IMG/VR virus record: IMGVR_UViG_3300021420_000098
Coordinates: 1-31,828 of that record
DNA length: 31,828 bases
Origin: a virus
Strand: one strand, 5' to 3'
Under the pieces are notes generated by a model. It did not search any database and was not told the DNA's origin. It saw only the letters and a program-made list of their open reading frames with translations. Below, in pieces: positions 14,129 through 26,268 of this stretch. The position numbers and the translations under genes are program-made. Numbering within the stretch: position 1 is the stretch's first letter; each line of letters opens with the position of its first letter.

Positions 14129-14862
14129 TTAATCCTGCGGTGGTGTTGGTGGTTCTGCTTTCTTTGCAGCCCAAACAACGTACTCGCCATCAATCGCTTG
14201 AATGAACGTGTTAAAGGGTTCTATTTCTATGCCGTTGTCTTCGGCGTAACGGCTAATAGCCGTGTAGTAAATTCTGCCGACGCCGCCCATTGAGCCGTAG
14301 AAGCGGTCTTCGCGTAGACAGTGCCACGCGGCCCGCAAATAGCCGGACCATATTGGCCACTCTGCGGTAGTCTCTTGTGGTTCCGGTACGCCGGATTCTT
14401 CTTCCGACAACTCCAAAAGGAATTCGTCGGTTGCCTTCTCGTTTAGTTCGTAACGGAAGGCGGCGGCAAGTTTTTTACCGCGTCCGCGACAAACTCAACT
14501 TCGCTTTCCGCAATCTGTTGAGCCGCCCAAAGAACCTGCTTAACAAATTCCTTGCCCTCTGGCGAAGTCATCAATTCCTTCGCCTTCTCTGCGGTGTACG
14601 CTTGGTCAAAACCATTCCAGTCAAAAAGAACATGGTCCGCAAGCAATCCGCCGATATCAGAATCGCGAACATCCGGCGGCGCGGTCTTGCCCTTGTACTT
14701 CCTCGCGTACTTCTGCACCAGAATATCTAGCGCAATCTTGTACGCTGGCATTTCAAGCGAGCGTACTCCTAGAGTCACGCCGGGCCATTCGGGAATTTCG
14801 ATATAGTCGCCCTCGCGTTCTGCGGTGACGTTGTTCTTAATTGAATCAAGCTTGATAGCCAT
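14129..14862 (-). CDS. Tail assembly chaperone GT, -1 frameshift product
   Basis: Two frames joined by programmed -1 frameshifting at 14476-14470. Zero-frame codons 14862-14470 give the first 131 residues; reading then resumes at 14470 with CTT GCC GCC and continues to the stop at 14129, adding 113 residues (244 in total). The second frame has no credible start of its own: the first possible codon is a TTG at 14416, while the frame is already open back to the slip site, giving FRYELNEKATDEFLLELSEEE. As in lambda G/GT and HK97, the fusion would bind tape measure through the G part and recruit tail tube protein through the T part. It is not part of the virion. Confidence 0.88.
14443..14862 (-). 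CDS. Tail assembly chaperone G
   Basis: A 139-aa protein, MAIKLDSIKNNVTAEREGDYIEIPEWPGV, ending KNLPPPSVTN. It lies between the tail tube and tape measure genes, the invariant location of G-type chaperones, and has the small mixed-alpha length typical of them. It ends 24 bases after the slippery heptamer. It would coat the tape measure protein during tail assembly, in excess over the GT fusion. Confidence 0.85.
   Translation of the reverse strand: MAIKLDSIKNNVTAEREGDYIEIPEWPGVTLGVRSLEMPAYKIALDILVQKYARKYKGKTAPPDVRDSDIGGLLADHVLFDWNGFDQAYTAEKAKELMTSPEGKEFVKQVLWAAQQIAESEVEFVADAVKNLPPPSVTN
14470..14476 (-). promoter_or_regulatory. Programmed -1 ribosomal frameshift site (A AAA AAC)
   Basis: On the minus strand the zero-frame codons are GTA AAA AAC, giving the X XXY YYZ heptamer A AAA AAC. 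After slippage both tRNAs can re-pair on AAA AAA. The -1 frame is open from here through the T part, and the zero-frame stop lies 24 bases downstream. The sequence just after it is GC-rich (TTGCCGCCGCC), which may slow ribosomes; I did not define a pseudoknot. Confidence 0.9.
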
Positions 14863-15009: not shown

Positions 15010-16470
15010 TTAGACTTCGTAGTACTCTATGCGGTCAATGATATACTGAGCCGCAGTCAAGCTGTCGTAGCTTGATTGATAAGAGAACGACGCCATAACG
15101 TCAGTGTTCTTTGCGCTAGCTGAAGGATTGCCGCCGCTCTTGTACGTCGCACGAGGTACTTGGTAGATTACCGCTTGGTTGTTCTTAGCAACGCGTGTGT
15201 TGATTGGCCGAGTTGTTCCGGCGTAGAACGCCGCAAGTTCGGTATCGTTGCCAAAGTAAGTATCCATCTTTCCGGTAACGGTACAGTCGCCTTCGCGAAC
15301 CGCAACGGGTGCAGTAGAGTCAACAGCCTCAATCGTTCGAAGGTTGTTGTTGCAAACGAACGTAATCGACTTCGCCCAATTAGGAGAAATCAATTGCGAG
15401 CCGTTGACACCAAGACGGCCAACGTTGGCGTTAGCCGCCATCACAAGGCCGGTTGTCACAGCATCAGGTGTAGCGCTCAAAGTAACCTGAGATTCACCAC
15501 CGCCCATGCCAATAAACGTCGCAACGCAAACAATGTTCGCTTTGCTCGTAATCGTAGTCGTAAGGTCGTTGACTTCCATACCCGTGTTTACGATATAGGT
15601 AGGTGTCGTTTGACCAAGGAAGCCGCGCTCAATCGTTACAGACGAAGGCGTGATTCCGTTTTTGATTTCGTCACCGAACCAAATCCAGACAGTTTTACCA
15701 GTTCCTGTATCGGTTGCCCACGCTGCGGGAAGGTTGTCGAGCGTAAGAGCCGTGGCAGAAATCGCGGTAATTCGGGCGAAGTCATTCACCGCCGCTGTAG
15801 CGAACCGGTTGGTAGTTGCCGTCGCGCCAATCTTGATCCACTGCCCAACCGCAAGGCCGAGAGTCGTCCAATTGAGCGCCGTCGAACCAAGGCCAGTCGC
15901 GGTTGCTGTGATATCGCCGGATGCACCAGCAACGCCAACAACCTTAAGCTTGGCAGTGCCAAGCGGGGCAGCGTCGGTGGTAAGGCCAAGTGCAGTACCA
16001 ACAACGGTTGTTGCGCTTGAGCTAGCAACAACAAAATTCTGGTTATTGGCTGCGGCCAAAAAGCCTGTAGCGCGGCAAATCATGCCAGCCAAGAACGCAG
16101 CGCCGCCGGCGGTTACGGTGTACGTGCTCGTGCCCGCAGCGGTAATAACGCTTGAAGCTGTCGTGTCGTTGAATAGTGTAGGTGTGTTCACCCACGAATT
16201 CAACATAGCCGAACGGATGACTTCTGAAATCGGCGTATTGTCGAGAGGATACGACAATTCGAAATTGATTCCGCCCGTCGAAGCCTGCATGTTCTTGACG
16301 GGGTCGCCAAGCATACGGTCTGAACGGATTTCAGAAGAGTCAATAAAGTTTGGCGCGAATGCAAGCGACTCGCCAGTTACCCGCATGGTACGCATACGCG
16401 GTGTGACCGGCGTTGTACCTTGTGTCGTCTCACGCACAAGCGAAAGACGTAACCTATTTGAGCTAGTGAT
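15010..16470 (-). CDS. Major tail (tube) protein, non-standard start
   Basis: About 475-486 aa. Features of the Phage_tube_2-type tail tube family: ETTQGTTPVTPRMRTMRVTGESL, SSEIRSDRMLGDPVKN, and TYFGNDTELAAFYAGTT near the end, with a long central beta-rich insertion. The first ordinary start codon is GTG at 16437, but it would remove TSSNRLRLSLV, which matches the family's usual beginning (SSNRxxLxYVxE). The frame is open upstream to the TAA of the previous gene at 16483. AGGA at 16482-16479 lies eight bases before an in-frame ATC (16470), so I give 16470 as the tentative start. It forms the tail tube on the tail terminator. Confidence 0.8.
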   Translation of the reverse strand: MTSSNRLRLSLVRETTQGTTPVTPRMRTMRVTGESLAFAPNFIDSSEIRSDRMLGDPVKNMQASTGGINFELSYPLDNTPISEVIRSAMLNSWVNTPTLFNDTTASSVITAAGTSTYTVTAGGAAFLAGMICRATGFLAAANNQNFVVASSSATTVVGTALGLTTDAAPLGTAKLKVVGVAGASGDITATATGLGSTALNWTTLGLAVGQWIKIGATATTNRFATAAVNDFARITAISATALTLDNLPAAWATDTGTGKTVWIWFGDEIKNGITPSSVTIERGFLGQTTPTYIVNTGMEVNDLTTTITSKANIVCVATFIGMGGGESQVTLSATPDAVTTGLVMAANANVGRLGVNGSQLISPNWAKSITFVCNNNLRTIEAVDSTAPVAVREGDCTVTGKMDTYFGNDTELAAFYAGTTRPINTRVAKNNQAVIYQVPRATYKSGGNPSASAKNTDVMASFSYQSSYDSLTAAQYIIDRIEYYEV

Positions 16471-16482
16471 TGTCGTATTCCT

Positions 16483-16695
16483 TTATGCGAATGTAGCGGC
16501 TGGCACTTCGGTAACTACAACCGGAGTCGCTACAACCGGTGCAGCAACAACCGGAGTCGCTGAGTCACCAACAAATTTTTCAAGCGTGACGAATTCGCCA
16601 GCTACCCAATGTTCAAGATTTTCAATGTTGTCGTAAAGTTCGTCACCAACCTTGAAAACCTGATTCGTGGTCTTAAAATCCTTCAGAACAATCAT
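16483..16695 (-). CDS. Small protein with Ala/Val/Pro/Thr-rich tail, in frame with tail tube
   Basis: A 70-aa protein, MIVLKDFKTTNQVFKVGDELYDNIENLEHWVAGEFV, then a low-complexity tail (DSATPVVAAPVVATPVVVTE). The N-terminal 45 residues look like a small SH3-like or beta-barrel module. The tail is encoded by short direct repeats. The start overlaps the tail terminator stop. Its stop TAA is in the same frame as the tail tube, with no stop between, so readthrough would fuse this module to the tube protein through a flexible linker. Function unknown. Confidence 0.65.
   Translation of the reverse strand: MIVLKDFKTTNQVFKVGDELYDNIENLEHWVAGEFVTLEKFVGDSATPVVAAPVVATPVVVTEVPAATFA
16514..16561. repeat. 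Short direct repeats encoding the linker-like tail
   Basis: The 15-base unit ACAACCGGAGTCGCT occurs at 16517-16531 and 16547-16561 (plus strand), with a diverged copy (ACAACCGGTGCAGCA) between them at 16532-16546. On the minus strand these encode the Ala/Val/Thr/Pro repeats. Likely slippage-prone linker expansion. Confidence 0.7.
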
Positions 16696-25614: not shown

Positions 25615-25965
25615 ATGACACTTAGGAATCGCGAGCTACACAACCGGCTAACGAACCTTCAAGAGTGCGCAGCCAATGCGCCGGAAGGCACCTACGAGCG
25701 CGCCAAAGAGGCGGCGTGCGTAATCAACGATTGCGCGGAAACAATTTTTGAAATATTTAAGGCCGCAAATTTCAAGCTTACTGGCACTGACGGGTTTCGA
25801 GATATCGAAGCCGCTCTTTACGGCCTGATGCTCGAAAGCAATCCGACCGAATACTCACTTCAAACCGGGGAAGGCTTCGGCGCTGCTATGGACACCCCCG
25901 CACGCGCCCGTGTGATAGCTCAAACAATCCGCGACCGCGACCAACTGAAGGCGTTGGGATTGTAA
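25615..25965 (+). CDS. First protein of plus-strand cassette, unknown function
   Basis: A 116-aa protein, MTLRNRELHNRLTNLQECAA, with a mostly helical first 60 residues (YERAKEAACVINDCAETIFEIFKAA), three cysteines, then DGFRDIEAALYGLMLESNP and a C-terminal helix. AGGGGA precedes the ATG. No signal, membrane segment or catalytic motif is seen, and I do not recognise the family. It is on the opposite strand to all structural genes and directly abuts the HTH gene (TAA ATG), so the two are one transcript. It could be a small effector such as an anti-host, exclusion or defence protein; this is inference from context only. Confidence 0.8.
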   Translation: MTLRNRELHNRLTNLQECAANAPEGTYERAKEAACVINDCAETIFEIFKAANFKLTGTDGFRDIEAALYGLMLESNPTEYSLQTGEGFGAAMDTPARARVIAQTIRDRDQLKALGL

Positions 25966-26268
25966 ATGCCACCCGAACGTAAATACGATTACCCTGTGAC
26001 CGAATACAGCCGCGCAATCGCCCGGCTAGGTTGGTCACAGGTTCACGCCGCGAAGATGCTTGGCGTTGACGCTAGAACTTCGCGGCGATACGTCAGCGGT
26101 GACTTGCAGTTGCCAGCCGTAACACGGCTTGTGCTTAGAATTCTTGTGAACGCCGAAGTAAATCAAGTCGAGCCCGCGCAAAACCCGCTAGAGCTATTCA
26201 TTGATCTAATTTTTGATCTTGAATTGAGCAAAAAGCGTTTGCAAAACCTGATTTCAAAAGAAATATAG
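25966..26268 (+). CDS. Small helix-turn-helix DNA-binding protein
   Basis: A 100-aa protein. The HTH is EYSRAIARLGWSQVHAAKMLGVDARTSRRYVSGDLQLP, with the turn at MLGVDARTSRRYVSG, of the Cro/CI-like kind found in many small bacterial and phage regulators. The C-terminal half (ELFIDLIFDLELSKKRLQ) is helical and may dimerise. The ATG follows the upstream stop with no gap. Likely the regulator of the promoter at 25550, binding the TAGGGC palindrome. An alternative is an antitoxin role, with the first gene as partner. Confidence 0.78.
   Translation: MPPERKYDYPVTEYSRAIARLGWSQVHAAKMLGVDARTSRRYVSGDLQLPAVTRLVLRILVNAEVNQVEPAQNPLELFIDLIFDLELSKKRLQNLISKEI

Follow-up and report, generated by a model that had tools for sequence, protein, structure and literature searches.

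How is a phage tail tube gene translated if no ordinary start codon precedes its conserved coding sequence? The question is raised by an IMG/VR virus record of 31.8 kb from an uncultured phage, the whole of which was analysed and is called here the window. The genes on its minus strand follow each other in the order terminase, portal, protease, major head protein, head-tail connectors, tail terminator, tail tube, tail assembly chaperone and tape measure. The tube gene (15010-16470, minus strand), delimited with the help of the start column of its relatives, encodes 486 amino acids from an ATC to the stop codon. Its product matches Pfam family PF18906 (Phage_tube_2; E=1.4e-28, 100.7 bits, above the curated cut-off of 27), is also assigned to PHROG 290, and in a profile comparison matches 8xan, a major tail protein of solved structure (E=1.7e-36). 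An AlphaFold prediction from 9 sequences had a pLDDT of 43; the model used in this work was obtained with 62 sequences (pLDDT 92.9), and in Foldseek its best match was 8xan (E=1.6e-19, TM 0.87 by target), followed by the tail tubes of P74-26 and T5. On the strength of these family, profile and fold matches the product is a phage tail tube protein. Elsewhere in the window, two small ORFs lie between the portal and protease genes (25615-26268, plus strand), the second of which is kept in G005/G009 (69% over 62 residues). The tail assembly chaperone gene (14129-14862, minus strand) has A AAA AAC as its slippery site (about 14476-14470), where ribosomes are likely to shift by -1, in a programmed manner, to the frame of 14494-14129; the arrangement is kept in relatives, and frameshifting in this gene is ordinary among siphophages.

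Read from position 16485, the minus strand begins TAA AGG AAT ACG ACA ATC, continues ACT AGC TCA AAT AGG TTA CGT CTT TCG CTT, and arrives at GTG (16437). This direct reading bore out the description given in the original prediction: the TAA of the preceding gene (16483-16485) is in the tube frame, no ATG, GTG or TTG occurs in that frame between it and GTG16437, and an ATC (16468-16470) lies eight bases past AGGA (16479-16482), the core of a Shine-Dalgarno (SD) sequence AAAGGA (16484-16479). The preceding gene, said to encode a 70-aa module with a flexible linker, is indeed an ORF of 70 aa with an Ala/Pro/Val-rich tail (16483-16695, minus strand). Counted from the ATC, residues 2-11 are TSSNRLRLSL and the GTG (16435-16437), which mechanical ORF lists take as the start, is codon 12 and is judged to be internal. 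The prediction had offered initiation at the ATC, initiation at an ACG (16476) and read-through of the TAA as possibilities; of these, the ATC is strongly favoured.

About 80 distinct relatives were collected from IMG/VR, GTDB genomes and GenBank phages. Across them the column of ATC16470 is the start codon, which is ATG in most (nearly all of the distant ones), among them Azospirillum phage Cd and EBPR siphovirus 3, and GTG or TTG in some. The first conserved position coincides with the relatives' ATG column, in agreement with the earlier claim that the conserved N-terminus extends upstream of GTG16437. Among the neighbours of the window the column contains TTG in L003, L004, L039 and L052 and GTG in L005/L009, but ATC in L006, as in the window, and ATT in L002, L042 and L256, the last found by a dedicated start-column pattern scan. 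Comparison of the junction in related phages, a check that had been proposed originally, thus yielded four further contigs with ATT or ATC (ATH). The window itself is known from a single metagenomic contig, and a sequencing or assembly error could have masked an ATG or another canonical start. However, since ATT or ATC occupies the same column in five contigs from different samples, such an error is very unlikely, to the point of being scarcely credible. The ACG is not kept (ACT in L042, AAC in L003) and is only 2 bases past AGGA.

In-frame stop codons are located 2-7 codons upstream of the start column in the window, L002, L003, L004, L005, L006, L039 and L042, which leaves no room for any other upstream start in these closest members of the non-ATG set. 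For the ATH contigs this means that no canonical in-frame start lies upstream of the conserved coding sequence, with the exception of L256. There, an in-frame ATG is found 11 codons upstream of the ATT, which counts against initiation at AUC or AUU, although this ATG is part of a hairpin resembling a terminator and lacks an SD.

The first canonical start in the tube frame is GTG16437, whose use would yield a 475-aa protein. Between the window and L002, codons 2-12 comprise 3 identical codons, 7 with synonymous and 1 with a nonsynonymous change; this predominance of synonymous change indicates that coding, constrained at the protein level, reaches upstream of the GTG. When every pair within the wider group is compared, these codons are less constrained than in the window and L002 (176 synonymous vs 160 nonsynonymous differences), and the stretch before the start, with 12 synonymous vs 110 nonsynonymous differences, is far from the pattern of codons 2-12. 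Of 62 sequences, 90% or more share each of the residues N5, R6 and E14; residues 1-10 of the tube model have a pLDDT of 91, and a strand is predicted at 7-13 with high confidence. A start at the GTG would sacrifice the near-invariant N5 and R6 and half of this beta strand, and would leave the coding-like evolution of codons 2-11 unaccounted for. Moreover, the GTG is poorly placed for SD pairing, is replaced by GTT in L002 and is a non-start codon in L004 and L006. Taken together, these data make the 475-aa protein highly improbable.

The in-frame TAA close to the tube start in the window and L002, and the flexible-looking, Ala/Pro/Val-rich end of the 70-aa protein, invite the idea that a fraction of the ribosomes reads through TAA16485 and that the 70-aa module, fused to the tail tube, is shown on the tail. 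Homologues of the 70-aa gene are present in L002, L003 and L004, but the gene adjoins the tube gene in frame in the window and L002 only, which does not fit a conserved fusion. The L003 copy is not in the tube frame and stops 73 nt before the tube gene; in L004 an inserted ORF intervenes and the distance grows to about 1 kb; L042/L039 have a terminator-like hairpin in its place, in L006 a tandem TAA TAG precedes the tube gene, and the other relatives have no such gene at this position. An in-frame upstream ORF is thus not conserved in the relatives. The same type of tail is found where a fusion is impossible (L003), and similar small ORFs with similar tails were recognized by eye in L007 and L010. 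No suppressor tRNA was found in the window. We regard read-through as extremely improbable.

Two minus-strand ORFs are inserted directly 5' of the tube gene: that in the contig carrying L004 (L160:8195-9152) has a sub-threshold GIY-YIG match and is possibly a homing endonuclease, and that in the contig carrying L006 (L161:3217-3474) matches an HTH domain below threshold. A GC hairpin resembling a terminator, together with a U run, is located immediately 5' of the tube SD in L003, L004, L039, L042 and L256, and hairpins of other sequence occupy this place in L008, L045, L047, L050 and L034. No terminator-like hairpin was found 5' of the tube SD in the window or in L002. The notion that the weak start compensates for hairpin loss in these two was rejected as not general, because hairpin and ATT coexist in L042 and L256.

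The proximity of the two genes also suggests termination-reinitiation, in which ribosomes finishing at TAA16485 would restart at the AUC 12 nt further on, so that the weak codon would cost little. The short gap between TAA and start (12 nt in the window, 18 nt in L002), with the SD in between, speaks for such coupling, which would be compatible with initiation at the AUC. In L042 and L256, however, the SD directly follows a terminator-like hairpin and not the end of a small gene; coupling therefore cannot account for the shared trait, although it may help in the window and L002. We consider it unlikely, if conceivable.

AAGGA or AGGAGG is found 5-8 nt 5' of the ATH codon in all five contigs, a workable spacing, and the SD core and spacing of the window recur in L002, L003, L042 and L256. 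Mean SD strength was -6.6 kcal/mol for the ATH starts vs -6.8 kcal/mol for the ATG relatives; as the two match, the idea that a stronger SD offsets the weak codon was rejected. Two neighbouring genes of the same loci served as controls. All tail terminator (43/43) and assembly chaperone (40/40) genes start with NTG, and none of the 83 with ATH, whereas 4 of the 51 tube genes start with ATH (5 with L256, which the automated count scored by its hairpin ATG) and 13 of 51 with GTG or TTG. The excess of ATH in the tube over the two control genes gave a Fisher p=0.019, a weakly powered value that is optimistic as the rows are related; for non-ATG starts in the tube vs the tail terminator gene p=0.0006, optimistic for the same reason. 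The terminase large subunit was rejected as a second ATH gene of the window, a TTG start being common to the window and G011, and the other window genes flagged as possible ATH starts lie mostly within overlaps.

On a tree of 27 rows the ATH/NTG state requires four changes; support for the wider clade of the window is moderate and its rooting unsure. L006 (ATC) and L005 (GTG) encode nearly identical proteins, and their DNA identity is about 90% past codon 10 but about 33% upstream of the start, with a sharp breakpoint close to codon 10. The ATC of L006 probably arrived with a recombined 5' cassette including a different upstream ORF, so the independent origins of ATH may number fewer than four. 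The tube start codon has repeatedly left AUG for GTG, TTG, ATT and ATC in what is probably a group of Rhizobiales phages.

Position, conservation, the limits of coding, recurrence, the contrast with neighbouring genes and the ATT-starting infC of genomes with related prophages together strongly favour the AUC as the start. Very probably, the tube is translated from the AUC (16470-16468), with the SD directing initiation in the ordinary manner and initiator fMet-tRNA being used, just as E. coli infC is translated from AUU. AAAGGA with its 8 nt spacing would position the ribosome over the AUC, which the initiator fMet-tRNA would read, presumably giving fMet as the first residue. IF3 represses non-canonical starts (PMC5472188; PMC2268962), and AUU and AUA starts with good SDs had about 10-30% of the AUG yield in S. 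aureus (PMC13009471). IF3 would likewise be expected to make the mismatched AUC weaker than AUG, with a reduced yield and sensitivity to IF3. Such a weak start is unexpected in a virion protein required in many copies, and this counts against the AUC. It may have been selected to set tube dosage or may be drift tolerated under a permissive SD; we favour neither.

The host of the window phage is probably a member of the Rhizobiales, as suggested by the related prophages, which six Rhizobiales genomes carry. In five of five readable genomes (L261, L262, L264, L265 and L266) infC opens with ATT CGC, preceded by GAGGAG or GGAGAA, which resemble an SD. This non-canonical start is conserved, and AUU initiation thus operates in plausible hosts. 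A more speculative, rather doubtful proposal is that selection has made the near-cognate start into an IF3-sensitive valve: the tube would be kept off AUG, its output would remain lower than the output of the late genes nearby and rise only when host IF3 is limiting, and control would be shared with the AUU of host infC. No phage-encoded IF3 was found within the window.

Gene finders restricted to ATG, GTG and TTG misplace the start of this gene and cut off 11 residues or more. With ATG, GTG, TTG, ATT and ATC at one site behind similar SDs, the group is a natural set for relating initiation strength to tail assembly, and the recurrence of ATH in the tube suggests other virion genes as places for such starts.

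In a limited search of the open-licence literature no report of an ATH start in a major tail protein was found. A recurrent AUU/AUC start in a major virion gene seems to be new; such starts are known in bacteria and have been predicted once in a phage. The gene for IF3, infC, starts at AUU in E. coli, and AUU or AUC infC starts occur in E. coli and Streptomyces. As in the tube gene, an AUU or AUC with an SD is conserved in relatives; unlike the tube, a virion structural protein whose start codon turns over among ATG, GTG, TTG, ATT and ATC, infC autoregulates its own fidelity factor. In S. aureus the ATH starts of cvfC1 (AUU) and ccpN (AUA) are also helped by an SD, but there the SD is extended, whereas that of the tube is no stronger than in its ATG relatives, and neither gene is structural, one encoding a putative small regulator and the other a repressor (PMC13009471). 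The non-canonical start of Streptomyces sigR cuts output through IF3 and is misannotated by gene finders, but it is a GTC in a bacterial regulator (PMC5472188). The closest phage case is orf28 (terS) of Streptococcus thermophilus phage TP-J34, for which an AUU start behind a strong SD (AAGGAGGTggatgtATT) was predicted after resequencing; in the part of that paper dealing with the gene, which is a packaging gene, the AUU is reported for TP-J34 and TP-EW only, without comparative recurrence (PMC3952083). Since an AUU start had already been predicted there, the tube start is a variation on a known mode of initiation and not a new mode.
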